DNA from: Couchioplanes caeruleus
GTDB taxonomy: Bacteria > Actinomycetota > Actinomycetes > Mycobacteriales > Micromonosporaceae
Reading direction: 5' to 3'
DNA: 64,000 nucleotides
Assembly: GCF_003751945.1 (NCBI RefSeq)
Contig: NZ_RJKL01000001.1
Span: 4,898,001-4,962,000 of the forward strand
Both the position numbers and the translations under genes were made by a program. The notes beneath the pieces are model-generated. The model saw only the letters and a program-made list of their open reading frames with translations, was not told the origin of the DNA and searched no databases. This document shows positions 2,358-53,494 of this stretch, piece after piece. The stretch's first letter is position 1, and every line of letters begins with the position of its first letter.

Positions 2358-3536
2358 GTGCCCGTGGTCGATGGATTCCTGATCCTGCTCATGCTGGTCT
2401 TCGCGATCAGCGGATACCGGCAGGGTTTCGTCATCGGCGCGCTGTCCTTCGGCGGCTTCTTCAGCGGCGTGCTGATCGGCCTCCAGATCGGGCCGCTGAT
2501 CGCCAACCAGTTCGCCGACGGCACGGTCCGGCTCGTGGTGTCGCTCGTGACGATCTTCGCGCTGGCGGTGCTCGGGCAGACCCTGGCGGGCTGGCTCGGC
2601 ACCAAGGTGCGCCGCACCATCGAGAGCCGGCCGCTGCAGCGCGTCGACGACGCGGGTGGCGCCATGGTGTCGCTGGTCGCCGTGCTGCTGGTCGCGTGGC
2701 TGATCGCCGTACCGCTGGGATCGACGCCGTTCCCCGAGATCAACCGGCAGGTCCGCAGCAGCGCCGTGCTCAACGGCATCAACAAACTCATGCCCGAGCA
2801 GGCGCAGGCGCTGTCGGCGGGGCTGCAGCAGTCGCTGAACACCAACGGCTTCCCGGACGTCCTCGGCGGCCTGAGGCGCACCAACGCCCGCGAGGTGGCG
2901 GCCCCGGACCCGGCCCTGGCGAAGAGCCAGGTCGTGGTCAACTCCCGCAAGTCGGTCATCAAGGTCCTGGGTACGGCCCCGAGCTGCTCACGCCGCATCG
3001 AGGGCTCCGGATTCGTGTACGCCGACGAGCGCGTGATGACCAACGCCCACGTGGTGGCGGGCACCCGCAACGTCCAGGTGGAGACGCAGAACGACCGCCT
3101 CGACGGCAAAGTGGTCGTGTACGACCCCGACCGTGACCTCGCCGTCGTCTACGTCCCGGGCCTGAAGGCGCCGCTGATGCCGTTCGTGAGGAAGCCCGCG
3201 GGCACCGGTGCGAACGCGATCGTGCTGGGCTTCCCGCTCGACGGCCCGTACAACGCCCAGGGCGCCCGGGTCCGCGACGTCAGCAAGATCACCGGGCCGG
3301 ACATCTACGACTCGGGCAACGTGACCCGCGAGATCTACACGATCCGCGCCCTGGTCCAGAGCGGCAACTCCGGCGGCCCCCTGATCGCCCCCAACGGCGA
3401 CGTGCTCGGCGTCATCTTCGCGGCGGCCGCGGACGACCGCAACGTCGGCTTCGCCCTGACCGCGGCGGAGGCGGCCGGAACGGCCAAGCTCGGCATCGAA
3501 CGCACCCGAGGAGTGAAGACGGGCGACTGTGCCTGA
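2358..3536 (+). CDS. MarP-like CvpA-domain membrane serine protease
   Basis: 392-aa trypsin-fold protease on an N-terminal CvpA-type membrane domain with four predicted TM helices within the first about 120 residues. The catalytic triad is visible: His in TNAHVVAG (about 231), Asp in DPDRDLAVV (about 260) and Ser in VQSGNSGGPL (about 337). The homologous protease of M. tuberculosis (MarP, Rv3671c) supports acid resistance and sits in the same gene neighbourhood. Start GTG 2358 follows GGAGCGA. Two cysteines, one near the protease start (PSCSRR) and one at the very C-terminus (DCA), could pair as in MarP. The last codon and stop lie inside the first unit of the 40-bp tandem array that follows. 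Confidence 0.93.
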   Translation: MPVVDGFLILLMLVFAISGYRQGFVIGALSFGGFFSGVLIGLQIGPLIANQFADGTVRLVVSLVTIFALAVLGQTLAGWLGTKVRRTIESRPLQRVDDAGGAMVSLVAVLLVAWLIAVPLGSTPFPEINRQVRSSAVLNGINKLMPEQAQALSAGLQQSLNTNGFPDVLGGLRRTNAREVAAPDPALAKSQVVVNSRKSVIKVLGTAPSCSRRIEGSGFVYADERVMTNAHVVAGTRNVQVETQNDRLDGKVVVYDPDRDLAVVYVPGLKAPLMPFVRKPAGTGANAIVLGFPLDGPYNAQGARVRDVSKITGPDIYDSGNVTREIYTIRALVQSGNSGGPLIAPNGDVLGVIFAAAADDRNVGFALTAAEAAGTAKLGIERTRGVKTGDCA

Positions 3537-3810
3537 CTCCCGCTGCGCCGGACTGACCCTCGCTGCGCCGGCCTGACTCCCGCTGCGCCGGACTGACCCT
3601 CGCTGCGCCGGCCTGACTCCCGCTGCGCCGGACTGACCCTCGCTGCGCCGGCCTGACTCCCGCTGCGCCGGACTGACCCTCGCTGCGCCGGCCTGACTCC
3701 CGCTGCGCCGGACTGACCCTCGCTGCGCCGGCCTGACTCCCGCTGCGCCGGACTGACCCTCGCTGCGCCGGCCTGACTCCCGCTGCGCCGGACTGACCCT
3801 CGCTGCGCCG
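3531..3810 (+). repeat. Perfect 7 x 40 bp tandem array overlapping the marP stop codon
   Basis: Seven head-to-tail identical 40-bp units at 3531, 3571, 3611, 3651, 3691, 3731 and 3771. Each unit is two diverged 20-bp halves, GCCTGACTCC + CGCTGCGCCG and GACTGACCCT + CGCTGCGCCG, so the array is also 14 half-units. The first unit contains the marP stop codon (TGA 3534-3536). There are no spacers, so it is not CRISPR. Identity of all copies implies recent amplification or homogenisation. Confidence 0.97.
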
Positions 3811-4111
3811 GCCGGACGGCCGCGCGCGTAGGCGGACCTGGACACGCTGCCGCGAGGGCACTCCCACTGGGCGGCGGTGACGCTGTCCCGGGTGCCCGGT
3901 GCCCGGTGTGGGCTTCCCGTGCGCACTGTGCCGGTGGCGGGCGCCTTCCGGTGGCCGTGCAGCGACCGTGCTCGACGCCGGGGATTCGGGTTCGGACGGC
4001 GAGCGGGCGTGCTGGCCCGCGGGCGGGTGTGCCGGCGGAGAGCGGCCGGGAGGCGAGCGCGGCGGTGACCGAGCGCGGCGGTGGCCGCGCGGGCGAGCGG
4101 GTGGCGGGTCG
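3811..4111. other. Convergent intergenic region marP / mycosin
   Basis: About 300 bp between the 40-bp array and the mycosin stop. No convincing gene. It carries short imperfect repeats (GTGCCCGGTGCCCGGTG near 3890, and a doubled 16-mer GAGCGCGGCGGTG-type element near 4053-4083, just downstream of the mycosin stop). Confidence 0.5.
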
Positions 4112-5533: not shown

Positions 5534-5745
5534 CAACGGGCACCGCCGCGGGGCGCGCGGGGCGCGGAAGCGTCAGGCCGGGCTGGACGGGACGCGATCG
5601 GTGCTTCGCTCACAGCGCTCACTGGACGGCGGGCCATTCTGAGGATGGACGGTCGATGGAGCGAGATTACTCCGAATCCGCGCGTTGTCGCGGTGGTCTG
5701 TCTATGCGGATCGCACCGGAGGTGCGTCCGGGCAAGGGCGACGGC

Positions 5746-9720: not shown

Positions 9721-9764
9721 ACCGTAGTTATCCCTTTCGTCCGCACTCTGGGCTTTCGTGGCAC

Positions 9765-9974: not shown

Positions 9975-11407
9975 GCATCGGCCTGGCCCGGATCACCATC
10001 AGCGCCCCCTCCCGCCGCGTCGACGTGGCGCTGCCCGAGCACGTACCGCTCGTGGAGCTCCTGCCGGAGGTCCTGCGCCACGCGGGCGAGGGCCTGGCCG
10101 ACGACGGCGAGAAGCACGGCGGGTGGGTGCTGCGGCGTACGGACGGTGTCGCGCTCGCCACCGCCCAGGGCCTGTTTCCCCAGGGCGTCCGCGACGGTGA
10201 GGTGCTGCACCTCGTCCCGGCGCGCGAGGAATGGCCCGAGCTCGAGTACGACGACGTGGTGGAGGCGATCGCCGAGGGCGCGCGCCGCCGAGGAACCGTG
10301 TGGTCCGCGGCCGCGACCCGGACGGCCACGCTCGCCGCGGCCGCGGTGCTGCTCTCGCTCGGCCTCTTCGCGGTGCTCACGGCCGGGCCGGGGTGGGGCG
10401 GCGCGGCGTTCGCGGGCCTCGGCGTGGCATTGCTGCTCACGCTCGCGGGCATCACCGCATCCCGGGCGTACGGGGACGCGCGCGCCGGCGCGGCCCTCGG
10501 CGGCCTGGCGCTGCCGTACGCGTTCGCCGGTGGCGCGGTGCTGGTCGGCCAGGGGGTGGTGGACCGGGCGGGCGTCTTCCCGCTGCTGCCGTGGCTCGGC
10601 GGCCCGGAGCTGCTCGCCGGCTCGGCGGCCGTGCTGCTGTTCGCGGCGCTGGGCGGGGTCGGCGTGGCCGCCTCGCTGCGGATCTTCGCCGCGGGCGTGA
10701 CGGTCGGCCTGCTCGGCGCCCTCACCGCGCTGACCGGCCTGCTGACGACGGCGGCGGGGGCGGCGGCGGTCCTCATGTCGCTGCTGGTCTGCGGCATCGG
10801 CACCCTGCCGCTGCTGGCGATCCGCTTCGGCAAGCTGCCCACGCCGCCGGTCACCCTGCCGACCGGCACGGACGCCGAGCAGGGTTTCACCGCCGCTCGG
10901 CCCGCGGGCGACGACGCCGCGCGGGAACTGCCCGACCGCAGGCGGGTGTTCGTCGCCGTGAGCCGCACGGAGGAACTGCTCACCGGCATGCTGATCGGCC
11001 ACGCCGTGCTCGCCGCGGGTGCCTTCGTGGTGCTCGCGTCGTCGGACGGGATGGCCGCGCGGATCCTGACGGGCCTCGCGGTCGCCGCCCTGCTGCTGCG
11101 GTCCCGGCTCTTCGTGACGTTGCGTCAGCGGGTGCCGCTGCTCGTCGGCGGCCTGTTCGGCGCCTTCGTGCTCGGCGTCGACCTGCTCGTGGGAGCGGGT
11201 GAGGTCATGCTGCTCGGCCTGAGTGTGGCCGGGCTGCTGCTGGCGGTGGCCACCGTGGCCGCGGGGGCTAGTTGGTCGCGTCGGGCACCGTCGCCGTACC
11301 TCGGACGCGCCGCCGACCTGCTCGACGGCCTGGCCGTGATCGCGGTGATCCCGGTGGCCTGCTCCGTGGTCGGCCTCTACGGCCTGGTCAGCACCATCAG
11401 CATCTGA
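9971..11407 (+). CDS. eccD: Type VII secretion integral membrane protein EccD
   Basis: 478-aa membrane component of the ESX translocon. Residues 1-80 form the ubiquitin-like (YukD) domain (LARITISAPSRRVDVALPEH), followed by a charged linker and about 11 TM helices from residue 115 to the C-terminus. This Ub-like plus 11-TM layout defines EccD, which lines the membrane pore around EccC and EccB. It is divergent from eccC. Its start overlaps the stop of a 27-codon micro-ORF. The gene ends at a run of degenerate 27-bp repeats and then a hairpin. Confidence 0.93.
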   Translation: MSIGLARITISAPSRRVDVALPEHVPLVELLPEVLRHAGEGLADDGEKHGGWVLRRTDGVALATAQGLFPQGVRDGEVLHLVPAREEWPELEYDDVVEAIAEGARRRGTVWSAAATRTATLAAAAVLLSLGLFAVLTAGPGWGGAAFAGLGVALLLTLAGITASRAYGDARAGAALGGLALPYAFAGGAVLVGQGVVDRAGVFPLLPWLGGPELLAGSAAVLLFAALGGVGVAASLRIFAAGVTVGLLGALTALTGLLTTAAGAAAVLMSLLVCGIGTLPLLAIRFGKLPTPPVTLPTGTDAEQGFTAARPAGDDAARELPDRRRVFVAVSRTEELLTGMLIGHAVLAAGAFVVLASSDGMAARILTGLAVAALLLRSRLFVTLRQRVPLLVGGLFGAFVLGVDLLVGAGEVMLLGLSVAGLLLAVATVAAGASWSRRAPSPYLGRAADLLDGLAVIAVIPVACSVVGLYGLVSTISI

Positions 11408-11452
11408 CGCCCGCCGCGGGCGGCTCCGCCGGAAAGCGCGACGGCCCCCCGA

Positions 11453-11506
11453 GAAAGCCGAAAAGCGCGATGGCGCGGCGAAAGCCGAAAGGCGCGATGG
11501 CTCTGC
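11453..11506 (+). repeat. 27-bp tandem repeat downstream of eccD
   Basis: Two near-identical 27-bp units (11453-11479 and 11480-11506) built on GAAAGCCGAAA + GCGCGATGGC, with decayed relatives on either side (about 11431-11450 and 11507-11540). It starts 45 bp after the eccD stop. Confidence 0.8.
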
Positions 11507-20168: not shown

Positions 20169-20807
20169 CTATCGGATGAACGCCAGCAGGCCGACGCCCA
20201 TGCAGGTGAGCAGCACCGGCGTCAGGCACGTGACGGCACCGACGACGGGCGTGCGGTCCACCTTCTGCGGTCCGCCGCCGTAGACGAAGCCGATCGTCAG
20301 CCAGCCCAGCCCGTACGCGAGCAGCGGCAGGCTCAGGCCGCACAGCAGCGCGTACGTCGGCAGCGAGCCGGACGGTGCCACCAGGTAGAGGACTATCTGC
20401 ACGATGAGGACGGCCGCCGCGAACGGCCCGTACACGAGAAGGTTGCGAGCCCACGGTCGCAGCGGTCCCGCCGGGCCCGGGCCCAGCATGCCCGCGTCCG
20501 CGGCGTCGGCCGTCGCGCGGGCCTGTCGCAGCGCCGCGAGGACGGCCGTGGGGCCGCCCGCGACGGCCTGCGCGGCGAGGGCCTGCTCCGCCGGCTGCGG
20601 GATCAGCCGCGCCTCCGGCACGCCCAGGTCCTGCACCAGCCGCGCCCGCTGGGGCGCCAGCCGGGCCCGGACCGCCGTCAGCTCCTGCTGGGCGGCCTGC
20701 GCCGTCGCCGCCTGTTCCCCGGCCGCCGCGCTGGCGGCGCGGCGAACCGCGTCCAGGCGCTGCGCGGCGGCGAGATAGTCGTCCCAGGGGCCGGGTCCGT
20801 CACTCAT
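20169..20807 (-). CDS. Membrane protein of unknown function, FtsK-like locus
   Basis: 212 aa. The N-terminal half (residues 1-125) is Ala/Gln-rich and probably coiled coil; the C-terminal half has three to four TM helices (LLVYGPFAAAVLIVQIVLYLV; TYALLCGLSLPLLAYGLGWL; GAVTCLTPVLLTCMGVGLLAF). I recognise no family. Its ATG 20807 overlaps the stop of a 10-codon micro-ORF that itself starts on the ATPase stop, implying coupled translation. By position it is a candidate membrane partner of the FtsK-like ATPase. Confidence 0.75.
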   Translation of the reverse strand: MSDGPGPWDDYLAAAQRLDAVRRAASAAAGEQAATAQAAQQELTAVRARLAPQRARLVQDLGVPEARLIPQPAEQALAAQAVAGGPTAVLAALRQARATADAADAGMLGPGPAGPLRPWARNLLVYGPFAAAVLIVQIVLYLVAPSGSLPTYALLCGLSLPLLAYGLGWLTIGFVYGGGPQKVDRTPVVGAVTCLTPVLLTCMGVGLLAFIR

Positions 20808-20850
20808 CGCTCAGCCTCGGGTTTTTTGGTGCTCATCGCTCAGCCTCGGG
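20803..20850 (-). repeat. 19-bp duplication carrying the stop codon of the FtsK-like gene
   Basis: CTCATCGCTCAGCCTCGGG occurs at 20803-20821 and again at 20832-20850 (period 29). One copy holds the ATPase stop codon, the other the start of the 212-aa membrane protein, so the duplication has created the small junction between the two genes. Confidence 0.9.
20804..20836 (-). CDS. 10-codon micro-ORF relay between ATPase and membrane protein
   Basis: ATG 20836 overlaps the upstream TGA (ATGA); ten codons (MSTKKPEAER) later its own TGA overlaps the ATG of the 212-aa gene at 20807. The peptide's second half copies the ATPase C-terminus (PEAER), showing it arose by duplication of the 3' end. Likely a translational relay, not a functional peptide. 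Confidence 0.35.
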   Translation of the reverse strand: MSTKKPEAER

Positions 20851-23415
20851 TCGGGCGAAGGGCACGATCGTCACCGTACGGTCGGCGTGCCTGTCATGCA
20901 GCAGCGCCCTGTTCTCCCGGGGCTGCCAGTCCAGGCTCTGCCCCAGCATGAGGGACACGTCCTGCTGCGGGACGTTGAGGAAGACCAGGCCGGCCACGTC
21001 CTCGCGGCCCGCGCTGCCGCCGGTCTCCTCGCTGAACCGGCGCAGCCCGCGCCACCACGACAGCAGGTGCACGCCACGGCTCGGGCCCTCACGCAGCACC
21101 TTGCGGAGCGTCGGCAGCGTGCCCGGGCTCGCCGCGTCCATGCCGAAGACCACGCGGTATCCCGGCCGCTCGAGGTCCAGCTCGGCGGCCAGCCCGGCGG
21201 CGTCGACGACGACGACCTCCTGGCGGTGGCCGATCTCGGCGGCCAGCTCCCGGGCGAGCTCGTCACCCTCCGCGACGAGCGAGGAGATGACGAACCTCGC
21301 GGTCCGGGGAGCGTGGAAGGCGGCGACACCGCGGGCGGCCGCATCCAGCACCTCTGCGCCGGCCGCCTGCGAGCCCAGGATCGCGAGATGCCGTCCCGGC
21401 GAGGCGTCGAGCGGGAAGGCCGCAGTGGACAAGTTCACGTCGATGACCCTGCCGAGCAGGGCCGACGGACGGCCCGCCCGGCCCGCCAGCGCGGCCCGGT
21501 AGGTGGGGTCGTCGGCGAGATGCTGACGGGCGTACCCGGCGAAGATGCGCGGCGGCAGCGCCTCCGGATCCCGGGCGCCCCACAGCTTGTGCCGCAGGTC
21601 GCTGAGCACGTCCCGGTCGGCGTGCGGATCGGGAAAGCGCACGATGCGCTCGTGGCCGCGGGTCGCGCCCCGCGGGCCGCCCAGCCCGCCGGCGGTGTTG
21701 ACGACGGCGGTGCCGAGCGGCAGCCCGGCCGCCGAGTCGTTGGTGGGCTCCAGGACGTCGCCGCCACCGGGCAGCGCGATCCGGACCGGGAACTGACCGA
21801 AGATCGAGTCACGCTTCGCGTACAGCGCCTCGACACCGAGGACGGTCTGGCTCGCCAGCACCAGATGGATCCCGTACGAGCGGCCCTTGCGCGCGAGCGA
21901 CTCCAGCAACTGCACCGCCTCGCCGGCCATCGGATCGTTGCCGGCGAGCAGCACCTGGAACTCGTCGATGACACAGAGCACGCGCGGCATCGGCTTGCCG
22001 CGGCCCTCCTCGGCCGCCACCGCGCGCAGATCCGCGAACCGGGTCACCCCGGCCCGCTTGTACGCCACCGACCGCCGGGTCATCTCGGCGTCGAGCTCGC
22101 GCAGCACCGCCAGGCCGTATTGCCGGTCGGACTCGACACCGACGGCGCGCGCGTGCGGCAACCAGGTGCGGTCCCGGGCGGTCGGCACGAACTCGGCGAA
22201 CGAGACGCCTTCCTTGAAGTCCAGCAGGTACAGGCTGAGCTCGTCGGGGCTGTAACGGGTGCCCAGGCCGTACAGAACGTTGATGAGGAAGGCCGTCTTG
22301 CCCGCGCCGGACCGCCCGCCGACCATCCAGTGTGGAGTCAAGTCGTTGAACTGCAGGACCACGGGCGTGTCGCCGTCGTGGCCGACCGTGGTGCCGAGCC
22401 CGTCGGCGGCATCGCCGGGCCAGACCCCGTCGGCCGGCTCCGGCAACAGGTCCGCGAGCGTCACCCGCGAGGCGGCGGCGGAATGCGCGGCCAGCTCCCG
22501 GCACACGGCGTCGACGAGATGCGGCGGCGGATCCTCGTCGAGGAAGACCGGGGCGTTGAGCCAGACCGCCTCCGGGATCGACCCGAACGTCGCGCCGGGC
22601 GGGTTGCCGATCACCGCGTACGGATTACGCACCGACACCTGAGTGGTGCGCGGCAGCGGCGGCTGCGTGGTCTCGGCGGTCAGCGGCGGCGGCGGCCACC
22701 CGGCCACCACGAGATGCAAGCCGGACTCGGGCCCCTGCTGCGCCAACGCGGCGATCCGCACCAGGTCGGCGCCCTCGGTCAACTCCGGCAGGCTCGCGAC
22801 GACCAGCAACATCATCCGGTCGCGACGGCCGCGACGGACGGCACCACCGCGCACGGGACGCAGCCACTTCTCGGCCTCGGTGAGCACCTCCCGCAGCCCG
22901 GCGCGGTCGATGGCCGGCGGCGACATCAAACCCGCGTCGGCCAGGACGTCGAAGGGTGCGAAGACGGTGCCTCCCCCCGTGCCGTCGACGGCCCGCACGA
23001 GCAACGACCCGGCGGGCGCGGCAGCCAGCAGCCGCAGCAGCAGGCAGCGCAACAACCCGGCGACCCGGGGATCCCGGGCGTCGGCATCGATGGTCAGATG
23101 CCCGCTGCCGAGCAGCGGCACGACGGCGGGAAACCGCGCATCATCGAGCGGCTGCGCGACCCCCAGCCGGACGAACTGCGGAGGAGAAACGCCGCCGAGC
23201 GGAGCATTCGCCGACAACGCATCAAGCGGCGACCCGAGCCACCCGGGAGCCAGCTCCCCGGCAGCGGCCCGCAACTCCTCGGCAAGACGATGCTGCTCCA
23301 GCGAATCGGCGGTGGGCGCAACCTGCCCCTCCAGTGCGGCGGCAGCCGCCACGACGGTGGCCTCCGCCTGGCGGTGCAGGGCAGCGGCCTGCTCGATCCG
23401 CCCCGTCGAATCCAC
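20833..23415 (-). CDS. FtsK/SpoIIIE (EccC-like) ATPase, orphan
   Basis: 860-aa ATPase of the FtsK/SpoIIIE/EccC class. I chose GTG 23415 (VDSTGRIEQAAALHRQ) because a perfect GGAGGTGA precedes it; the frame extends upstream without coding character. There is no obvious TM helix. One canonical P-loop, GGRSGAGKTAFL (about 365), has a matching Walker B-like VLCVIDEFQVLL. A second ATPase-like module near residue 675 reads LGSQAAGAEVLD and has lost the P-loop Lys, so it is probably a non-hydrolysing, substrate-sensing domain as in EccC modules. It heads a three-gene set with a membrane protein and a small helical protein. DNA translocation is an alternative role. Confidence 0.85.
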   Translation of the reverse strand: MDSTGRIEQAAALHRQAEATVVAAAAALEGQVAPTADSLEQHRLAEELRAAAGELAPGWLGSPLDALSANAPLGGVSPPQFVRLGVAQPLDDARFPAVVPLLGSGHLTIDADARDPRVAGLLRCLLLRLLAAAPAGSLLVRAVDGTGGGTVFAPFDVLADAGLMSPPAIDRAGLREVLTEAEKWLRPVRGGAVRRGRRDRMMLLVVASLPELTEGADLVRIAALAQQGPESGLHLVVAGWPPPPLTAETTQPPLPRTTQVSVRNPYAVIGNPPGATFGSIPEAVWLNAPVFLDEDPPPHLVDAVCRELAAHSAAASRVTLADLLPEPADGVWPGDAADGLGTTVGHDGDTPVVLQFNDLTPHWMVGGRSGAGKTAFLINVLYGLGTRYSPDELSLYLLDFKEGVSFAEFVPTARDRTWLPHARAVGVESDRQYGLAVLRELDAEMTRRSVAYKRAGVTRFADLRAVAAEEGRGKPMPRVLCVIDEFQVLLAGNDPMAGEAVQLLESLARKGRSYGIHLVLASQTVLGVEALYAKRDSIFGQFPVRIALPGGGDVLEPTNDSAAGLPLGTAVVNTAGGLGGPRGATRGHERIVRFPDPHADRDVLSDLRHKLWGARDPEALPPRIFAGYARQHLADDPTYRAALAGRAGRPSALLGRVIDVNLSTAAFPLDASPGRHLAILGSQAAGAEVLDAAARGVAAFHAPRTARFVISSLVAEGDELARELAAEIGHRQEVVVVDAAGLAAELDLERPGYRVVFGMDAASPGTLPTLRKVLREGPSRGVHLLSWWRGLRRFSEETGGSAGREDVAGLVFLNVPQQDVSLMLGQSLDWQPRENRALLHDRHADRTVTIVPFARPEAER

Positions 23416-35919: not shown

Positions 35920-35945
35920 GAGCCGCGCCGGAGGAGGTGGACGAG

Positions 35946-37205
35946 ATGGCCTACGACGAGACCCCGTACCGTCGCAACGTCGGCGACGCGCAGACGCCGG
36001 CCGACCCGGCGGCATACCGGACCGGCTCGGCGGCCACCGACCCCCGCTCCTGGCGCCGTGATCCGGAGGCGGACGACGCCGGGACCCGGATCACCGAGCC
36101 GTTGCCCGCCGCCGGCCGCCGTGCCGACCTCGGGCGCGACCGGCTCGGCGTCCACATCGGCTGGGAGATCGTGCTGCTGCTGGCCGTCGCGGCCGTCGCC
36201 TTCCTCCTCTACCGGCTCGATCCCGCCGCCCTGCGCCGGCCCGCGCTGGACACGCTGCTCACCTCGGGTGCCGCGATCGGGCTGCTCGCCCTCGGCGCCG
36301 GGCTCACGCTGCGCGCCGGCGTACCGAATCTCGCGGTCGGCCCGATCGCCCTCGCCGCGGCGCTGCACTTCGCCGAGAACGGCGACGACGGTCTGGTCCG
36401 GGCGGTGGTCCCGGCGCTGATCGTCGCCGCCGCCGGCGGCCTGGTGGCCGCGGTCCTCGTGCTCGTGCTGCACGTGCCGGGCTGGCTGACCTCGCTGGCC
36501 GCGGCCATGGGCGTCATCGTGTACGACCAGTTGCGCACCGCCCCGGCCCCGATCCAGCGCACCTATGACCTCTCCGACCAGGCGTTCTACCTCTTCGGCG
36601 GCTTCGCTCTGGTGGCCGTGATCGGCGGCGCGCTGGGCACGGTCCAGCCGATCCGCCGGATGATCGGCCGGATGCGCCCGGTCGGCGACCCGGCCGACCG
36701 GCGCGGCGGCCAGGCGGTGCTGCCGGTCGTGGCCGCACTCGTGCTGTCGTCGGTGTTCGCGGTCGGCGCCGGCACCCTTCTGGCGGCCCGGTCGACGGCG
36801 CCGATCGTGCCCGGCACCGGGCTGGAGTGGACCGGGGTCGCGTTCGGCGTGGCACTGCTGGCGGGCACGAGCGCGTACGGCCGCCGCGGCGGCATCTTCG
36901 GCACCCTGCTCGCGACGGCCGGGCTGACGCTGTTCCTCGACTACGCCGACCGCCGCGACTTCGACATCGCCCTGTTCGCGGTCGGCGCCGCCGCGATCGG
37001 CGCGGGCCTGCTGGTGACGCGGCTGGTGGAGACGTACGGACGGCCGCTGCCGCCGACCGGCGTCGACGAGGACTGGAACGGCGCTCCGGACACCGGCGAG
37101 TGGTCGCCGGCCGTGCCGGAGACCTGGTCGTCGTCGTCGGCCACCTCGGCGCAGAGCCGCTCGTCCGAGCAGTGGGACCTCGGACCCTGGGGCGGCGGAC
37201 GCTGA
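35946..37205 (+). CDS. Orphan ABC-type permease (RbsC/BPD_transp_2-like)
   Basis: 419 aa. ATG 35946 is favoured by GGAGG 8 nt upstream (GTG 35937 is the alternative). After a 70-residue polar N-terminus come about nine TM helices with the family's glycine-rich motif NLAVGPIALAAALHF and the helix pair VPGWLTSLAAAMGVIVYDQL, as in sugar/nucleoside permeases of the RbsC group. The C-terminal 60 residues are Ser/Trp-rich and disordered. No ATPase or binding protein lies beside it, so the transported substrate and even ABC function are open. The stop is inside a 24-bp tandem repeat. Confidence 0.8.
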   Translation: MAYDETPYRRNVGDAQTPADPAAYRTGSAATDPRSWRRDPEADDAGTRITEPLPAAGRRADLGRDRLGVHIGWEIVLLLAVAAVAFLLYRLDPAALRRPALDTLLTSGAAIGLLALGAGLTLRAGVPNLAVGPIALAAALHFAENGDDGLVRAVVPALIVAAAGGLVAAVLVLVLHVPGWLTSLAAAMGVIVYDQLRTAPAPIQRTYDLSDQAFYLFGGFALVAVIGGALGTVQPIRRMIGRMRPVGDPADRRGGQAVLPVVAALVLSSVFAVGAGTLLAARSTAPIVPGTGLEWTGVAFGVALLAGTSAYGRRGGIFGTLLATAGLTLFLDYADRRDFDIALFAVGAAAIGAGLLVTRLVETYGRPLPPTGVDEDWNGAPDTGEWSPAVPETWSSSSATSAQSRSSEQWDLGPWGGGR

Positions 37206-37256
37206 TGGTCGTGGAGCGGCGGAGGCTGATGGTCGTGGAGCGGCGGAGGCTGATGG
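37193..37256 (+). repeat. 24-bp tandem repeat carrying the permease stop codon
   Basis: Copies at 37193-37216, 37217-37240 and a partial third from 37241. Each repeats GGCGGA(C/G)GCTGATGG with an in-frame TGA (37203, 37227, 37251); the first TGA ends the permease gene. Confidence 0.92.
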
Positions 37257-37289
37257 CGTGACCGGCACGGTGGCGTCCGGTTGCGGCCC

Positions 37290-38242: not shown

Positions 38243-38272
38243 GCAGCCCGGACCGTGCCGGGTCCGGGCTGC
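38243..38272. terminator. Strong bidirectional hairpin between convergent genes
   Basis: Perfect 12-bp stem GCAGCCCGGACC / GGTCCGGGCTGC with a 6-nt loop, placed between the 163-aa gene (+) and opuCA (-). Confidence 0.85.
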
Positions 38273-38314
38273 GGTGCCCGCTCAGGTCCGCGGTGCGGTG
38301 CCCGCTCAGGTCCG
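38271..38314 (-). repeat. 24-bp-period duplication carrying the opuCA stop codon
   Basis: GCGGTGCCCGCTCAGGTCCG at 38271-38290 and again at 38295-38314. On the minus strand both copies carry an in-frame TGA (38308 and 38284), the first being the opuCA stop. Confidence 0.9.
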
Positions 38315-39319
38315 GGCCGCGGCCTGACGATTCGGTACGTCGAAGAGCAGCGACCGCGAGATGGTCCCGACCGGCTTCCCGTCCTGCATGGCCACCACGT
38401 TCAGCGCATCGCTGGTCAGCATCACCGACAGGGCGTCGTAGAGCGTGCCGCCCGCGTCGACCGTCGGCAGCCGCTCGATGTCCTCGATCTGTCCCATCGG
38501 GCGCATCGCGTCGCGCACCTTGGTGACCGTGAGCCGGCGGACGCCCCGGTCGTTGCCGACGAACTCGCCGACCGCCGCCGACGCCGGCTCGCTCAGCAGG
38601 TCGGCCGGGGAGGCGTACTGCAGCAGCCGGCCGCCTTCGGCGAGGACCGCGATCCGGTCGCCGAGCCGTACGGCCTCGTCGATGTCGTGGGTGACCAGCA
38701 CGATGGTCTTGCGGACCGCGGCCTGGAGCCGGAGGAATTCCTCCTGGAGGCGGCCGCGGACGATCGGGTCGACCGCCGAGAACGGCTCGTCCATGAGCAG
38801 CACCAGCGGGTCCGCGGCGAGCGCCCGGGCCACACCGACCCGCTGACGCTGCCCGCCCGAGAGCTCGTGCGGGTAGCGGCCGCCGTACCGGGCGGGGTCC
38901 AGGCCGACGAGCTCGAGCAGTTCCTCCGCGCGTGCCCGGGTCTTCTTCCGGTTCCAGCCGAGCAGCCGGGGGACGGTGCCGACGTTGGCGCGGATCGTCT
39001 GGTGCGGGAAGAGTCCCACATTCTGAATCACGTACCCGATGTGCCGGCGCAGCTCGACGGGGTCCTGCGCCGCGATGTCCTCACCGTCGATGAGGATCCG
39101 GCCCTTCGACGGCTCGATCAGCCGGTTGAGCATGCGGAGCACGGTCGACTTGCCACAGCCGGACGGCCCGATGAGGACGGCCAGCTCGCCGGCCCGCACC
39201 TCCATGCTGATGTCGCCGACGGCCACGGTGCCGTCGGGATAGACCTTTCCCACGTTCTCGAGCGTGATAGACGCCGCGGTCCGGCCAGCACCGGAGTCGT
39301 TGATCGCGGTAGCGTCCAC
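38306..39319 (-). CDS. Osmoprotectant (glycine betaine/choline) ABC transporter ATPase
   Basis: 337-aa OpuCA/ProV-type ATPase. Walker A GPSGCGKST (about 51-59), Q-loop VIQNVGLFP, signature LSGGQRQRVG, Walker B LVLLMDEPFSAVD and switch His in VTHDIDEA. The C-terminal about 90 residues form CBS-like modules (VRDAMRPMG; SDALNVVAMQDGKPVG), which in this family sense ionic strength or nucleotides such as c-di-AMP. GTG 39319 has AGGAAGGA 5 nt upstream, located inside the divergent permease gene. Partners are the two permeases and binding protein on the other strand. Confidence 0.93.
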   Translation of the reverse strand: MDATAINDSGAGRTAASITLENVGKVYPDGTVAVGDISMEVRAGELAVLIGPSGCGKSTVLRMLNRLIEPSKGRILIDGEDIAAQDPVELRRHIGYVIQNVGLFPHQTIRANVGTVPRLLGWNRKKTRARAEELLELVGLDPARYGGRYPHELSGGQRQRVGVARALAADPLVLLMDEPFSAVDPIVRGRLQEEFLRLQAAVRKTIVLVTHDIDEAVRLGDRIAVLAEGGRLLQYASPADLLSEPASAAVGEFVGNDRGVRRLTVTKVRDAMRPMGQIEDIERLPTVDAGGTLYDALSVMLTSDALNVVAMQDGKPVGTISRSLLFDVPNRQAAART

Positions 39320-42064: not shown

Positions 42065-43600
42065 ATGCCTGACCGGGATCCCGATATGCGGCACAGCGAC
42101 CATCTTCCTCGCGCGCTGATCTGGGCCGGCATCGGCCTGGCCCCGCTGGCGGCTGTCGTGGTGCTGACCGGCGGCGCCGGTGGCTCGGTGAAGTTCGCGG
42201 TCCTGCTGGTCGCGCTGTGCGTGCTGCTGATCGGCACGTCTCTCCTGGTCCGCCGCGAGCCGGCGACGGACGTCGACGAGCGGGTGACCACAAAGGTCGA
42301 AGCGTTGCGCCGTGAGCTGCGCGACGAGGTGCGCAAGGCCGGTCCGCGCCCGGCCGTCGCAGCCGGGACGGCCGAAGGACCCGGCGTGGAGGGTCGTGCA
42401 CCCGTCGGCGCGGCCATGGGGTCGGCACGACGCGTGACCGCCTCCGCCTCGGTGTCCCCGGCCGTCGCCGGCACCGCGCCTCCTCCGCCTTTCGCCACGG
42501 CCGCGGTGGCCGGTACTGCTTCTCGTTCGTCTGTCGCTTCGTCCGCGGTCGCTGGCGCTGCGCCTCGTCCGCCTCTCGCCGCGGCTGCCGTCCCCGGCGT
42601 GGCGCCTCTCCCGCCGAAGCCCGCCTCGGTGCCGGTCAGGGCGGCGGCGACCCGGCCTGCGGCATCTCCCCGGGAGCGGGGTGCGGCCTCGGTGCCGGCG
42701 CCTCGGGCGGGGTCGTACCGTGACCATCTTCTGCACGCCGCGGCTCCCGAACGGCGGCGAAGGCATGCGGCCCCGGACACCGGCACGGACATCGCCGGCT
42801 CCGGCTACGGGCCCGACGCCGAGCCGGACTGGTCCCACACCGCCGGAGACGGATTCGAGCCGGACCCGCTCTGGTCCCGTTCCGGACAGGTGTGGCCGGA
42901 CCATTCCACTCCGGAGCCGGGCGGCTTCTCGACTCCGGAGCCGGCCGGCTTCGAAGCGCAGGCTGCCTACGGCCTCACCACCGGTGCCCTCAGCGGCTCG
43001 GCAGACGACGCCGCCGGGGCGTCGAACGGTTACGACGGTGGCTACCCGGCCGGACGCTACGACGGCGGCGGCGTGGAATACGGCACGGGCTACGACGACC
43101 GCAGCGCGGGCCACAAGGACAGCACCGGCTACGACGGCGACGCGAGCTACGACGGTGGCGCGGGTTTCAACGGCGGCGCGAGCTACCGAGACGGTGGCGC
43201 GGGCTATGACGGTGGCGCGGGCTATGCCGGTGGCACGGGCTACGAGGGTGGCGCGGGCTATGACGGTGGCGCGGGCTACGAGGGTGGCGCGGGCTATGAC
43301 GGTGGCGCGGGCTATGACGGTGGCGCGGGCTATGACGGTGGCGCGGGCTATGACGGTGGCGCGGGCTACGAGGGTGGCGCGGGCTATGACGGTGGCGCGG
43401 GCTATGACGGTGGCGCGGGCTACCGGGGTGGTGGCGCGGGCTCCCGCGCGGCAGGCAACCGCGCGGCAGGCAACCGCGTGGCGGGCAACGGCGCGGCGGG
43501 CTACGGCTATGGGCGGGGGCAGGGTCGGGTGCGCGGTAGCGCCGACGGTCTCGACCGGCGCCCCGCTCCGGACCGGGATCGGCACCGCCGCGGCTGGTGA
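42065..43600 (+). CDS. Membrane protein with long Gly/Tyr hexapeptide-repeat tail
   Basis: 511 aa. Two TM helices (ALIWAGIGLAPLAAVVVL; FAVLLVALCVLLIGTSLLV) form an N-terminal hairpin. Then comes a charged, probably coiled segment (DERVTTKVEALRRELRDEVRK), a long Ala/Pro linker, and 13 consecutive hexapeptides of the type (D/E)GGAGY. The end is Arg-rich (RDRHRRGW). The first 90 residues recall the membrane protein that precedes DUF2520 in mycobacteria (Rv3604c position), but I cannot confirm homology. The tail looks disordered and multivalent, so a scaffold or condensate-forming role is possible. Confidence 0.75.
   Translation: MPDRDPDMRHSDHLPRALIWAGIGLAPLAAVVVLTGGAGGSVKFAVLLVALCVLLIGTSLLVRREPATDVDERVTTKVEALRRELRDEVRKAGPRPAVAAGTAEGPGVEGRAPVGAAMGSARRVTASASVSPAVAGTAPPPPFATAAVAGTASRSSVASSAVAGAAPRPPLAAAAVPGVAPLPPKPASVPVRAAATRPAASPRERGAASVPAPRAGSYRDHLLHAAAPERRRRHAAPDTGTDIAGSGYGPDAEPDWSHTAGDGFEPDPLWSRSGQVWPDHSTPEPGGFSTPEPAGFEAQAAYGLTTGALSGSADDAAGASNGYDGGYPAGRYDGGGVEYGTGYDDRSAGHKDSTGYDGDASYDGGAGFNGGASYRDGGAGYDGGAGYAGGTGYEGGAGYDGGAGYEGGAGYDGGAGYDGGAGYDGGAGYDGGAGYEGGAGYDGGAGYDGGAGYRGGGAGSRAAGNRAAGNRVAGNGAAGYGYGRGQGRVRGSADGLDRRPAPDRDRHRRGW
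43190..43423 (+). repeat. Thirteen 18-bp repeats encoding (D/E)GGAGY
   Basis: Thirteen consecutive 18-bp units based on GACGGTGGCGCGGGCTAT, with more degenerate copies from 43151. All in frame; variants change only the first residue (D/E/A) or one Gly/Ala. Confidence 0.95.
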
Positions 43601-43613: not shown

Positions 43614-44756
43614 CTACTTGTCGATGTCGCCGACCACGAAGAACATCGAGCCGAGAATGGCGATCAGGTCCGGCACGAGACAGCCGGGAATCAGCGTCGC
43701 CAGCGCCTGGACGTTCGCGTACGACGCCGTGCGCAGTTTGAGGCGCCACGGTGTCTTCTCGCCGCGGGACACCAGGTAGTACCCGTTGATGCCGAGCGGG
43801 TTCTCCGTCCAGGCGTACGTGTGGCCCTCGGGAGCCTTGACCACCTTGGGCAGTCGCACGTTGACCGGTCCGCCGATACCGTCCACCCGGTCCAGGCACT
43901 GCTCGGCCAGGTCCAGCGACACGTAGACCTGCTCCAGCAGCACCTCGAACCGGGCATGGCAGTCGCCCGCGCTCCGGGTCACCACGGGCACGTCGAGCTC
44001 GCCGTACGCCAGGTACGGCTCGTCGCGCCGCAGGTCGAGGTCCAGGCCGCTGGCTCGGGCGACGGGTCCCGAGGCGCCGTACGCCGCCGCCTGCTCGGCG
44101 GTCAGCACGCCGACGCCGACCGTACGCGCCAGAAAGATGTCGTTCCTGCGGATCAGGCGGTCGATGTCGGGCATCCGGCTGCGAACCAGCGCGATGGCCT
44201 CCCGGGCCCGGCGCGTCCAGCCGGCAGGCACCTCCTCCTTGAGGCCGCCGACCCGGTTGAACATGTAATGGATGCGCCCGCCGGACACCTCCTCCATGAC
44301 GGCCTGCAGCGTCTCCCGCTCGCGGAAGGCATAGAACATCGGGGTGATCGCCCCGATCTCCAGCGGGTAGGACCCGAGGAACATCAGGTGGTTCAGCACC
44401 CGGTTGAGCTCGGCGAGCGCCGTCCGCAGCCAGGTCGCCCGCTCCGGCACCTCGATGCCCATCAGCCGTTCCACGGCGAGGACGACGCCGAGCTCGCTGG
44501 AGAACGCCGACAGCCAGTCGTGCCGGTTGGCGAGCACGATGATCTGCCGGTAGTCACGGACCTCGAAAAGCTTTTCGGCGCCGCGGTGCATATAGCCGAC
44601 GATCGGCTCGCATTCGACGACCCGTTCGCCGTCGAGCTTCAGCCTGAGCCGGAGCACGCCGTGGGTGGACGGGTGCTGCGGACCGATGTTGAGCACCATG
44701 TCGGCGGTGTCGAGCCCGGCTCCGGTCCCGACCGTCATCTCCCGCAAGTCACTCAC
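43614..44756 (-). CDS. NADH-quinone oxidoreductase subunit D paralogue (orphan NuoD)
   Basis: 380-aa NuoD/49-kDa-type subunit, which in complex I contributes to the quinone pocket. Conserved stretches include [15 protein letters not shown] (about 23-37), [10 protein letters not shown] (Arg about 58), [26 protein letters not shown] and the C-terminal [23 protein letters not shown]. It stands outside any nuo operon, so it is probably a second copy that replaces or supplements the operon subunit, or serves a hydrogenase-like or alternative complex. GTG 44756 follows the midA gene by a 111-bp repeat-filled gap on the same strand. Confidence 0.9.
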
Positions 44757-44901
44757 GGCTCAGATCGTCCCACGAAGCTCGACGCCCGCCTCGTGCGGCG
44801 GCCGCCGAGCGGCTCACATCGCCCCACGAAGCTCATCGCCGGCCTCGTGCGGCGGCCGCCGAGCGGCTCACATCGCCCCACGAAGCTCGACGCCCACCTC
44901 G
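44757..44901 (-). repeat. Three 54-bp in-frame copies of the midA 3' end including its stop
   Basis: Units begin at 44757, 44811 and 44865 (period 54). On the minus strand the real gene ends [15 protein letters not shown]. Downstream copies read HEAGDELRGAM-stop and HEAGVELRGTI-stop in the same frame. They fill the whole space between the midA stop and the nuoD start. Confidence 0.95.
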
Positions 44902-45857
44902 TGCAGCAGCCACCAGTGACCGCCGAGCCCGCCCGGGTCGGTCAGCTCCGCCGCCGCACCCGCCGCGCCCAGTGCGCGCAGATAGCCCGTCGGGTCCGTG
45001 CGGGCAAGATCCAACGGTGGCCGGCCACCGTCCACACCCAGGGCGTGGAGCGCCGTCCGCTGCGTCATGATCCGGTACGGCGTCCCGCCGGCGGCCGCGG
45101 CCGAGTCGAGGGCCACGTGCGCGGTCACATCACAGCTCCCGTCCGGTACGGGATCGACCTGCCGCCCGCCCCGGTATCCGGTGAGCGTGCCGAACGCCGG
45201 TCGGGCGCCGCGCAGATGCCCGTAGTCGACCGCCAGGGCGCAGCCCCGGCGCACCGAGGCGACCGCGTCGGCCCAGGCCACGTCGCGGGGCCAGCCGATC
45301 TCGATCCGGTCGCCCAGCCCGGCCCGTGGCCACCACCGGGCGATCCAGAACCGGTCGGCGGGGTTCACGTCGGCGCCCAGCGACTCCGTGCCGGTGGCGA
45401 GGTCGACGAGCAGCCGGCGGGCGCGCCCGTCCGAGTCGATCTCGGCCACGTCGAGCGGGACGTTGTCCAGCCACTCGGTGGCGAGCAGCACGCCCACGAT
45501 GTCCGCCGGAATGTCGGATCGCCAGGCCGTCGTGGCGGGCAGTCCCCCGGGCCGGGGCGCCAGCTCGACGCCGGTGAACCGGAGGCGTCCCTCGAGTGCC
45601 GTCCCGGCGGCCGAGGCGGCCAGGGCGGCGAGCAGTTCCCCGCGTCCCGCGCCCACGTCCACCACCTGCAGGACCGGCGGCCGGCCGAGCCGGGCGTCCA
45701 CCGCCTCGATCAGCCGCAGCAGAGCGCCCGCGAAGAGCGGGGAGGCGTGCACGCTGGTCCGGAAGTGGTCGGCCGGGCCTGTGGCCGCGCTCGTGAAGAA
45801 CCCCTCGGCGCCGTACAGCGCGTGTTGCATGGCGAACCGCCAACCCACCCTCGTCAC
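44868..45857 (-). CDS. MidA/NDUFAF7-family SAM-dependent protein arginine methyltransferase
   Basis: 329 aa, DUF185/MidA family. N-terminal family block [24 protein letters not shown] (about 19-42), SAM motif [12 protein letters not shown] (about 65-76), [14 protein letters not shown], and the family signature [11 protein letters not shown] with GTLTGYRGG and [12 protein letters not shown]. In mitochondria NDUFAF7 dimethylates an Arg of NDUFS2, the NuoD homologue, during complex I assembly. Here the gene precedes nuoD on the same strand, so NuoD is the obvious substrate. GTG 45857 follows a TANNNT box by 7 nt; ATG 45830 is the alternative. Confidence 0.88.
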
Positions 45858-47692: not shown

Positions 47693-48120
47693 TGCTCCGC
47701 ACCATGCTCAAGTCCAAGATCCACCGGGCCACCGTGACGCAGGCCGACCTGCACTACGTGGGGTCGGTGACCGTCGACCTGGACCTGCTGGAGGCGGCGG
47801 ACCTGCTGCCGGGCGAGCAGGTCGCGATCGTGGACGTGACCAACGGCGCGCGCCTGGAGACGTACGTGATCCCGGGCGAGCGCGGCACCGGCGTGATCGG
47901 CATCAACGGCGCGGCGGCCCACCTGGTGCACCCCGGCGACCTGGTCATCCTGATCTCCTACGGGCAGATGGACTCGGCCGAGGCGCGCTCGTACCAGCCC
48001 CGGATCGTGCACGTGGACGCGGACAACAAGATCATTGAGCTGGGCGCGGACCCGGCGGCCGCCGTCGAGGGCATGGCCGACGATCTGGTACGGGGTGATC
48101 TCACGCTGTCCGCGCGCTGA
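47692..48120 (+). CDS. panD: Aspartate 1-decarboxylase proenzyme
   Basis: 142-aa pyruvoyl enzyme making beta-alanine for PanC. Self-cleavage occurs at Gly-Ser in [10 protein letters not shown] (about residues 24-25). Other motifs are [12 protein letters not shown] and [22 protein letters not shown] with the catalytic Tyr. Coupled to panC by TGATG. Followed by degenerate repeats. Confidence 0.97.
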
Positions 48121-48399
48121 GGCCGATGGATCTCATCTTTCTGGGAGTCAGCGAGTCCCTACTCTCTGCGGGGGCCAGTGGTCTCATCTCCCTGCGGGGC
48201 AGCGAGTCCTTACTCCCTGCGTGGGGGCAGGCGGTCTCATCCCGCTCTGGGGGCCGGCGGTCTTATCCCCCCTCTGGGGCCGGCGGTCCCAGTCTTCCTC
48301 CGGGGGACCGGCCGGTCTGACGAACGACGCCTGAGGTCCGGGTCGATTGCCATATCATCGGCAAATCGGACATCGCGCGGCGCTCGGGGGGCTCGGTTC
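48121..48399 (+). repeat. Degenerate tandem repeats downstream of panD
   Basis: From about 48128 to 48310, five decayed units begin GG(A/T)CTCATC or close variants (near 48128, 48180, 48233, 48259, 48285). The first two are about 53 bp with a shared GCAGCGAGTCC-type core; later ones are about 26 bp. No gene is supported; a short open frame (48126-48320) reads straight through the repeats. TATCAT at 48353 may be the -10 of the next gene. Confidence 0.7.
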
Positions 48400-51062: not shown

Positions 51063-51940
51063 CAGACGAAACCCCGCAGGTGCAGGCGATCGAGGGGCTC
51101 AACCTCGCCGAGGTGGAGCGCGTCGTCTACACGGCGCTCGCGGAGGACCTCGGCGATCCGCCGCGGGACGTGACCAGCGAGGCCACCATCGGCGCGGAGC
51201 AGACCAGCACGGCCGAGCTGGTGGCCCGCGCCGCCGGGGTCGTGGCCGGGCTGCCGGTCGCCGCCGAGGTCTTCGCGGTGACCTCGGGCGGCACGGCGAT
51301 CTTCGACCAGCGGGTGCCCGAGGGTGCCCGCGTCACCCGCGGCGACGTGCTCGCGGTGGTCACCGGGCCGACCCGCTCGCTGCTGACGGCGGAGCGTACG
51401 GCCCTGAACCTGCTGTGCCGCATGTCCGGCGTGGCCACGCACACCCGCCGGTGGGCCGACGCCCTCGCCGGGACGACGGCGACCGTCCTGGACACCCGCA
51501 AGACGACCCCGGGCCTGCGCGCCCTGGAGAAGTACGCGGTCCGGGTCGCCGGCGGCACCAACAAGCGCATGGGCCTCTACGACGTCGCGATGATCAAGGA
51601 CAACCACAAGCTGGCGGCGGGCAGCATCTCGGCGGCGTACCGGCTGGTCCGCGAGCGGTTCCCGGACGTCCCGGTGCAGGTCGAGGTGACGACCCTCGCC
51701 GAGGCGGAGGAGGCCGTCGAGGCCGGCGCCGACTTCCTGCTCTGCGACAATATGACGCCGGAGCTGCTCCGCTCGGTCGTGGACCGCGTCGGCGAACGCG
51801 CCGAGCTGGAGGCGACCGGCAACCTGACCCTCGAAACGGCGACCGCCTACGCGGCGACCGGGGTGGATTACCTCTCGGTGGGTGGTTTGACCCATTCCTC
51901 CCCGATCCTCGACATCGCGCTGGACCTGCGGGTGAACTGA
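51059..51940 (+). CDS. nadC: Nicotinate-nucleotide pyrophosphorylase (carboxylating)
   Basis: 293-aa quinolinate phosphoribosyltransferase producing NaMN. Typical motifs: LAEDLGDPPRDVTSEA, ERTALNLLCRMSGVAT, DTRKTTPGLRALEKYAVRVAGG (substrate-binding basic residues), MIKDNHK and SVGGLTHSSPILDIALDL. ATG 51059 overlaps the nadB stop. Two hairpins follow the stop. Confidence 0.97.
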   Translation: MTDETPQVQAIEGLNLAEVERVVYTALAEDLGDPPRDVTSEATIGAEQTSTAELVARAAGVVAGLPVAAEVFAVTSGGTAIFDQRVPEGARVTRGDVLAVVTGPTRSLLTAERTALNLLCRMSGVATHTRRWADALAGTTATVLDTRKTTPGLRALEKYAVRVAGGTNKRMGLYDVAMIKDNHKLAAGSISAAYRLVRERFPDVPVQVEVTTLAEAEEAVEAGADFLLCDNMTPELLRSVVDRVGERAELEATGNLTLETATAYAATGVDYLSVGGLTHSSPILDIALDLRVN

Positions 51941-51980
51941 CCGACCGCTCGGTCGGGTCGCCGGGCCGACGATGCCCGGC
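51941..51980 (+). terminator. Tandem hairpins after nadC
   Basis: CCGACCG-CT-CGGTCGG (51941-51956) starts right after the stop, followed by GCCGGGC / GCCCGGC (51960-51980) with a 7-nt loop. Likely terminator of nadBC. Confidence 0.65.
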
Positions 51981-52318
51981 TCGTGGCGCGGCGGCCACCG
52001 CGAGGGCGGCGGCGCCCATGTTCGCCGGCTGCCGGCGCCCGGCGCGGTCGCGGCCGGACGTCGGTCGAGCCTTGCGGCGGGCGCGTCGGGGCGGCTCGGG
52101 CTGGGGGCGGTTGTGCGGCCTCGGCGAGGCCTCGGCGGCGGGGTTTCTTCGGCAGTGGCACGGAGCTGGGGCCCGGCAGCGGGGTGGGTGGCTCGGGGGC
52201 TCGGTCCCGTGTGTTGCTGGGGCGGTGTTGCGGTTGTGGGCGCCAACGCCCGTACCCGGAAACGGTTTAAGGTTTTGATCGTCCCCGCATCGACTGATCG
52301 TCCCACCTAAGGTTGATC
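51981..52318. other. Intergenic region nadC / coaX
   Basis: About 340 bp of G-rich sequence with no supported gene. Frames open through it lack start signals and homology. TAAGGT at 52308-52313 lies 5 nt before the coaX GTG and may be a -10 box or, as AAGG, a ribosome site. Confidence 0.4.
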
Positions 52319-53080
52319 GTGCTTCTCTGCATCGACATCGGTAACACCAACACCGTCCTCGCCACCTTCGACGGCGACAAGCTGGTGCACAGTTGGCGGA
52401 TCAAGACCGACGCGCGGTCGACCGCCGACGAGCTCGGTCTGATGTTTCGCGGGCTGCTGGCCGGCGACGCGGTGGAGATCACCGGGGTGGCGGCCTGCTC
52501 GACCGTGCCCGCCGCGCTGCGGTCGTTGCGGACGATGCTGGCGCGCTACTACGGCGATCTGCCGAATGTGATCGTCGAGCCCGGCGTGAAGACCGGCGTG
52601 CAGCTCGCGATCGACAACCCCAAGGAGGTCGGCGCCGACCGGGTGGTGAACACCCTGGCCGCGCACGCCCTCTACGGCGGGCCCTCGATCGTCGTGGACT
52701 TCGGCACGACCACCAACTTCGACGTGATCAGCGCCAAGGGGGAGTTCCTCGGCGGTGCGTTCGCGCCCGGGATCGAGATCTCCTTCGACGCCCTCGCCGC
52801 GCGGGCGGCGCAGTTGCGCAAGGTGGAGCCGACCAAGCCGCGGTCGGTCATCGGCAAGAACACGGTCGAATGCCTGCAGTCCGGCCTCTACTACGGCGTC
52901 GCCGGGCAGGTCGACCGCATCGTCGAGCTGATGACGGCCGAACTGGGCACCGTGCGGTCGGTCATCGCCACCGGCGGACTGGCCTGGCTCGTCAAGGACG
53001 AGTGCCGGACCATCACCGCGCACGAACCGATGATCACACTCATCGGTCTGCGCATGGTCTATGAGCGCAATGTCGGTTGA
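52319..53080 (+). CDS. coaX: Type III pantothenate kinase
   Basis: 253-aa first enzyme of CoA synthesis, ASKHA fold. N-terminal phosphate loop LLCIDIGNTNTVLATF (about 2-17), GADRVVNTLAAHALYG, the second phosphate motif IVVDFGTTTNFDVIS and GGAFAPGIEIS. GTG 52319 gives the standard N-terminus; TTG 52313 is in frame but adds two residues. It completes a pantothenate/CoA set with panC and panD, here with the NAD genes in between. Confidence 0.96.
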   Translation: MLLCIDIGNTNTVLATFDGDKLVHSWRIKTDARSTADELGLMFRGLLAGDAVEITGVAACSTVPAALRSLRTMLARYYGDLPNVIVEPGVKTGVQLAIDNPKEVGADRVVNTLAAHALYGGPSIVVDFGTTTNFDVISAKGEFLGGAFAPGIEISFDALAARAAQLRKVEPTKPRSVIGKNTVECLQSGLYYGVAGQVDRIVELMTAELGTVRSVIATGGLAWLVKDECRTITAHEPMITLIGLRMVYERNVG

Positions 53081-53446
53081 TCGGCTGTTCCGCACGCGAT
53101 CGCGTTGATCGTCCCGATCGGCGGCCCCGGTCACCCGGCGGGGCCCGACCGCGCGGTGTATTAATTGCGGTCCGGAACAGATCCTCCAGCCTGCGTTTGT
53201 GACGCACAGCGACGCTTTGTTCACGGATCTCTATCTTTTCCGGGCTTGGCGGCCGCCCGGTTGATCATCGTTGCAATTCCGCTACCTGCGGCATGGCGGG
53301 CGCGGATCGCCGGTCGGCGACTTGCCGATTTCCCGGCGCGGGATCGGGCCTACGCCGGCCACCTGCTTTCGCCGGGGCCCGCGGGCAGCGCCGGTGACTT
53401 CGGCGGATTAGGACCAGGCCGTTTACCTCGGTCGCGGCCCGCTACT

Positions 53447-53494
53447 CGCCGCACGGTGGCTGGTCGGCAGCGCCGCACGGTGGCTGGTCGGCAG
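53447..53494. repeat. Perfect 24-bp tandem duplication
   Basis: The same 24 bp, beginning CGCCGCACGGTGGCTGGTCG, occurs at 53447-53470 and 53471-53494. Its period matches the gene-end repeats elsewhere in the window, but no gene end is recognised here. Confidence 0.9.

Follow-up and report, generated by a model that had tools for sequence, protein, structure and literature searches.

In the window, a stretch of 64,000 nucleotides covering positions 4,898,001-4,962,000 of the 8.43 Mb genome of the soil actinomycete Couchioplanes caeruleus, five genes of unrelated function end within a short tandem duplication that carries their own stop codon (Table 1). They are marP, encoding a MarP family serine protease, a so-called permease gene, an opuCA-like gene, a gene for an FtsK-like ATPase and a midA-like methyltransferase gene. 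With good confidence, we consider these arrays to be locus-specific minisatellites that arose by local tandem duplication in a duplication-prone family of genomes and that were sieved by purifying selection. The stop-carrying copies most likely persist since they are harmless both to the gene and to its neighbour, so that the 3' flank would be a refuge and no new stop or terminator system. Four observed properties of the arrays bear on this reading, namely their distribution, their silence, their independence and their turnover between species. An earlier note, made from the letters of this stretch, had listed eight repeats; all of them were present, with boundaries slightly amended by Tandem Repeats Finder (TRF), by comparison with the gene ends and, for the FtsK-like pair, by eye. 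Its view that a single ongoing process, perfect to decayed and on both strands, had acted at genes of unrelated function was supported.

The own-genome sample of 2.064 Mb, in which 1726 genes were called, was made up of the window and 100 further stretches, each 20 kb long, and arrays were accepted at a TRF score of at least 60, at least 75% matches and a period of 12-120. There were 321 arrays at this score and 179 at a score of at least 90. In 1.0 Mb of sequence simulated with a third-order Markov model, the counts were 6 and 0, respectively; it must be noted that the simulation had no codon structure and that 175 of the 321 real arrays lay inside genes. The small contrast of 150 kb of E. 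coli K-12 gave no array at a score of 60 or more and one at 54. Among stops followed by a gap of at least 20 bp, 32 of 1073 were straddled by an array, vs. 7 of 1264 starts (Fisher p 5e-6; genes cut by piece ends were excluded). Therefore, the stop-carrying pattern is real and not limited to the window, outside of which 28 of 1036 stops were straddled. Two circumstances that could undo the pattern, arrays being equally frequent in gene interiors and promoters or being restricted to the window, were run on the sample, and the pattern withstood both. The window itself was somewhat enriched (4/37 stops vs. 28/1036 elsewhere), with a p value of 0.02 that is post hoc, the window having been flagged for these repeats beforehand. 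As regards position on the chromosome, arrays with a score of at least 90 numbered 99 and 119 per Mb in the origin-side half and 64 and 64 per Mb in the terminus-side half, the halves being defined by distance from dnaA at 4.38 Mb.

Similar straddling rates were found across the Micromonosporaceae: 7/266 for stops other than marP in loci of the Actinoplanes group, 6/260 in other genera and 21/676 in the own-genome sample used for this comparison. All genome collections held one genome per species. A genus sample of 775 kb, which is not independent of the window because 375 kb of it is syntenic with it, also had arrays more commonly at stops than at starts.

The mechanism that we propose would begin with the local tandem duplication of a unit of about 12-100 bp at a gene tail, presumably by slippage or unequal exchange. 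Such an event would turn A-U-B into A-U-U-B and, with the stop in the first U, would be silent, copy one retaining the protein end and the stop, and the last copy retaining the leader and start of the following gene. Because a duplication with the stop in its first copy would be silent, the main refuge would be the 3' flank, beginning roughly one unit before the stop. Within genes nearly only multiples of three would survive, and arrays would be rarer near starts. Purifying selection would thus act as a sieve on arrays that probably have no function, whose copies would later expand, drift and vanish between closely related species.

This silence rule was followed by the arrays. The stop lay within the first copy in 32 of 41 straddlers, where 15.7 were expected at random placement (p 1e-7), with 23/30 in the own genome and 9/11 in the genus sample, and of the nine exceptions, five had the stop as the very end of the first copy. 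The mirror rule at starts was obeyed in 9 of 12 cases (4.8 expected, p 0.015), and the period was divisible by three in 163 of the 175 interior arrays. The rule points to selection. A 25-bp array about 2.8 kb into L230 (positions 5050001-5070000 of the own genome) lies over two convergent stops 26 bp apart; it is an exception to the rule, one C-terminus being probably changed. This array enters the counts at both stops, as another (L098) does for marP and for its neighbour.

The same logic could be read at single junctions. For midA/nuoD, the 30 best of 67 genus genomes were compared, 28 of them being relatives other than the own genome and the genome G006. In 24 of these 28 the distance between the midA stop and the start of nuoD was -4 to +5 bp. 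The midA tail followed by TGA and GCC was found in two copies in G006 and in three 54-bp copies in the window, the last copy being the sequence that the relatives have before the GTG, and the upstream copies having drifted. Similarly, the FtsK-like stop had a single ATGA context in five relatives and was doubled, 29 bp apart, in the window, where one copy (20832-20851) keeps the stop and the other (20803-20822) keeps the downstream ATG. In G006 the stop overlaps the next ATG (single ATGA) and there is no filler. At both junctions stop and start lie in different copies and the units duplicate local sequence. A short A-rich filler, absent in the relatives, separates the two FtsK-like copies; it looks as if an end-joining or templated event, and not simple slippage, had taken place there.

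At the permease tail, G006 had an array of about 22 bp, with TGA in it, at the matching place, and it also had the opuCA duplication in common with the window (24 vs. 25 bp); at both sites four more distant relatives had none. In general, arrays of equal place and period at the window genes were rarely common to the five syntenic relatives. At eccD, whose array in the window lies downstream of the stop, the relative G049 (within L194-L197) presented a different 19-bp array straddling the stop.

Independence was seen at marP. The MarP protein is 95% identical to that of Couchioplanes caeruleus subsp. azureus JCM 3246, the nearest named record, and the marP locus of the nearest relative lacks the array. 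A 19-base pattern from the array had seven matches in the own genome, all inside the array, and a 27-base pattern (up to 2 mismatches) had none in 59 other genomes of the class. In the Actinoplanes group, 7 of 41 marP loci had stop-straddling arrays, with TRF units of 17-64 bp that differ from each other beyond the coding tail. On a MarP tree of 41 tips (window included; L095 excluded, as its contig ends near marP), the eight carriers were all singletons, requiring at least eight changes. More generally, 138 of 146 non-interior arrays had no second place in the sample, in a search at 80% or more identity over at least 80% of the unit and E <= 1e-4, which is blind to single copies of units below about 20 bp. 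The eight arrays with a second place included none of the final stop-straddlers (one of the eight, in L008, had counted as a straddler with the initial gene calls). The arrays are therefore locus-specific, young and recurrent, and they have the attributes of minisatellites or variable-number tandem repeats: head-to-tail units of about 10-100 bp, with copy number or presence varying between close species.

The density of arrays was expressed as leading edges per 10 kb of available positions. In the own genome it was 8.7 across the stop (-30 to 0), 6.6 in the first 30 bp past it, 9.1 in the second 30 bp, 7.1 in the following 60 bp, and 3.7 and then 2.1 beyond 120 bp, while at starts it was 1.6, 2.9, 2.7 and 2.6 up to 120 bp and then 4.0 and 3.4. 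Density across the stop did not differ significantly from that of the 0-120 bp downstream (p 0.49); the stop codon itself is not the target and is not preferred over the following 120 bp. In own-genome gaps of 150-600 bp, the density was 11.5 near the stop and 8.3 in the middle of convergent gaps, went from 7.5 at the stop to 2.7 at the start in tandem gaps, and was 1.8 near the start and 4.0 in the middle of divergent gaps. These profiles are the expectation if duplications are eliminated close to promoters and leaders but retained elsewhere. The genus sample gave 7.6 across the stop, followed by 8.6, 4.1, 13.6, 5.7 and 9.0.

Several points weigh against sieving by selection as a complete account. 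The own-genome density also falls beyond 120 bp on the stop side, which would require an unseen constraint or uncalled genes. The account is further weakened because the genus sample has no such fall, and straddling in that sample (10/395 stops vs. 4/456 starts) was not significant (p 0.10). Four of the 41 straddling entries plainly violate the silence rule, one opuCA array, inherited in common, was counted in both samples of the silence test, and TRF may end an array early if the upstream coding copy cannot hold a stop. All genes were called by a custom script, without external annotation. Finally, the marP stop was struck more than the other stops of the same loci (7/41 vs. 7/266, p 0.0008), so that tolerance alone may not explain every site; the excess may be due either to a long free flank or to a mutational hotspot.

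This excess, together with the eight changes on the tree, is an argument for gene 3' ends being mutational hotspots, owing to transcription termination, R-loops or replication conflicts, with the stop simply carried along. The restriction of the own-genome density peak to the first 120 bp after stops also agrees with it, as does the somewhat higher frequency of straddlers on head-on genes (19/456 vs. 13/617). However, the latter difference was not significant (p 0.07) and was reversed for the downstream arrays (p 0.38), replication direction having no clear effect. Furthermore, the middle of convergent gaps is also rich in arrays, the genus sample has no clear fall beyond 120 bp, and the silence rule points to selection. 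Taken as the general cause, hotspots seem to us quite unlikely. A more specific version, which we advance only tentatively, is that certain gene tails of Micromonosporaceae, above all that of marP, are true hotspots, where a mutational mechanism at 3' ends would go on producing stop-carrying tandem copies and would work as a ratchet, separating gene pairs that overlap or touch (ATGA junctions) and altering translational coupling while leaving the proteins intact.

The remaining explanations attribute a function or a common origin to the arrays. The earlier note had named selection for redundant stops as a candidate and had remarked that several periods were multiples of three, so that each TGA stayed in frame; as a general rule the latter was not borne out. 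In favour of redundant stops, 58 of 99 later copies had a stop triplet in register and some arrays, such as that of marP, give stops in several frames, which could catch read-through or frameshifted ribosomes. Nevertheless, the stop columns were not better conserved than the others (215/278 vs. 2067/2478 identical, paired p 0.34; the unit-alignment script is weak on indel-rich arrays such as L080). Nor were straddlers more often in frame, with periods divisible by three in 14/29 vs. 54/107 of the other intergenic arrays (p 1.0), the latter figure being probably inflated by uncalled genes. An early excess (14/20 in the first 1.26 Mb) had become these 14/29 in 2.06 Mb, and straddlers in the Actinoplanes-group loci had such periods in 2 of 14 cases, as read from the listing. 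In addition, array density immediately downstream of the stop is as high as that across it, and the presence of arrays is species-specific. Tandem backup stops were therefore rejected, later stops being no better conserved than other columns and no more often in frame than expected from other intergenic arrays, and we regard their selection as very improbable.

Equally improbable is that transcription terminators or RNA elements were amplified to give the arrays, terminators having also been proposed earlier as the source or target of the process. In its favour, the opuCA array abuts a GC-rich inverted repeat kept by relatives just past the stop and enters its first arm (by eye). Against it, folding z-scores were alike in 45 flanks with an array and 131 without (-1.10 vs. 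-1.11, p 0.97) and the units are mostly unrelated between loci. An intrinsic terminator was rejected, no hairpin excess over array-free 3' flanks being found, and a search of the window against Rfam gave no matches at gathering cut-offs. The last candidate, a dispersed family of mobile repeats, MIRU- or REP-like, that would have entered stop/start junctions, is almost certainly wrong: junction copies that leave both genes intact do resemble MIRUs as presented in the available part of PMC12548453, but most arrays lack a second place within the reach of the search described above, and such a family is already contradicted for marP, whose unit is confined to its own array, and for midA, whose unit is midA's own tail.

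Table 1. Genes and tandem arrays considered in the window (positions counted from its first nucleotide).
Feature	Position	Strand	Remarks
marP (MarP family serine protease)	2358..3536	+	NCBIfam NF033740, 480 bits (cut-off 250); Pfam Colicin_V and Trypsin_2
marP stop TGA	3534-3536	+	In first repeat copy
marP tail array	3531..3817	+	20/40-bp unit GCCTGACTCCCGCTGCGCCGGACTGACCCTCGCTGCGCCG; TRF: 40 bp x 7.2, 99%
eccD stop	11405-11407	+	EccD by PF19053
eccD downstream array	11428..11501	+	27 bp; starts 21 bp past the eccD stop; TRF
Gene downstream of FtsK-like	20169-20807	-	ATG inside copy 20803-20822
FtsK-like junction duplication	20803..20851	-	20-bp copies 20803-20822 and 20832-20851, spacing 29
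FtsK/SpoIIIE-domain ATPase gene	20833..23415	-	Pfam FtsK_SpoIIIE; stop 20833-20835
So-called permease gene	35937..37205	+	Stop 37203-37205
Permease array	37188..37260	+	24 bp x 3.1; stop in first copy; TRF
opuCA array	38261..38322	-	24 bp x 2.6, across stop; TRF
opuCA/proV-like ABC ATPase gene	38306..39253	-	ABC_tran; stop 38306-38308
nuoD	43614-44756	-	NF004739; Complex1_49kDa; GTG start
midA array	44756..44911	-	54 bp x 2.9; midA tail + TGA + GCC; ends at nuoD GTG; TRF
midA-like methyltransferase gene	44868..45848	-	Pfam Methyltransf_28; stop 44868-44870
panD stop	48118-48120	+	PanD by PF02261
panD downstream arrays	48131..48318	+	Decayed, 26/51 bp; start 11 bp past the stop; TRF
Perfect 24-bp pair	53447..53495		Between called genes; TRF

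The FtsK-like pair was found by eye in the sequence and is absent from the TRF list. As regards the identity of the genes, neither Pfam nor NCBIfam gave a match to the so-called permease at E <= 1e-5, the midA-like gene had no match in the NCBIfam search, the EccC/EssC models matched the FtsK-like ATPase far below their cut-offs, and the opuCA-like gene reached 321 bits with TIGR01186, slightly below the cut-off of 326.6. Two long tracts of 15/30/45-bp and 18-bp units, at 31730-32181 (adjoining a called gene) and 43086-43501 (inside a called gene), are probably low-complexity protein segments.

Some features of these arrays are shared with known systems. In the available passages of PMC9879509, the tandem-repeat regions of Borgs are described as having units unique to each locus, as recent, independent and of fast turnover, and as divisible by three inside genes, all of which resembles what we found. 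Unlike the arrays reported here, Borgs are archaeal extrachromosomal elements with A-rich perfect repeats, and those passages contain no test of stop codons, of the silence rule or of a 3' bias; the units of our arrays are mostly imperfect and appear to be GC-rich. The mycobacterial VNTR3239, between rnc and fpg1, is likewise an actinobacterial tandem array that widens a near-zero gene gap: according to the part of PMC2734929 available, it widens a gap of a few bases in one clade, varies between strains, and its longer arrays were accompanied by higher mRNA of the next gene. In contrast to the stop-carrying arrays, it begins 40 bp past the rnc stop and does not include it (same part of PMC2734929).

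MIRUs, in the sections available of PMC12548453, are apparently mobile repeats with an inner open reading frame coupled to the gene at the insertion site, and they also occupy gene junctions whose neighbouring genes still work. The units described here differ from them in being local copies of each gene's own tail, and no single sequence family was found at many loci (in a search that would miss the shortest units where they occur as single copies). For a MIRU, the arrangement looked for is insertion at a start codon, with an inner open reading frame coupled to the next gene at -4 nt; at the FtsK-like and midA junctions, stop and start are in different copies, the units there being duplicates of local sequence. 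Finally, the TAACTGA direct repeats of Beggiatoaceae are short and stop-holding, and some overlap the end of an upstream open reading frame. As presented in the accessible text of PMC4679880, however, they are one fixed 7-bp sequence found genome-wide, mostly just before start codons, unlike the locus-specific units of our arrays. Neither stop-carrying tandem arrays in Micromonosporaceae nor the silence rule appeared in the titles or abstract openings among the literature matches listed. The arrays are thus minisatellites that share features with Borg repeats, VNTR3239 and MIRUs, but whose units are copies of the local gene tail and whose placement obeys the silence rule.

In this way, a striking recurrent pattern is accounted for without a new system, and a simple and testable rule is obtained for the persistence of tandem duplications in dense bacterial genomes: for the two neighbouring genes, a copy bearing the stop is invisible. 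The FtsK-like and midA/nuoD junctions show concretely how genes that touch or overlap can become separated. The frequent arrays at marP make the contributions of mutation and selection directly testable, and the 3' flanks of these actinomycetes are fast-evolving sites that could serve for strain typing.

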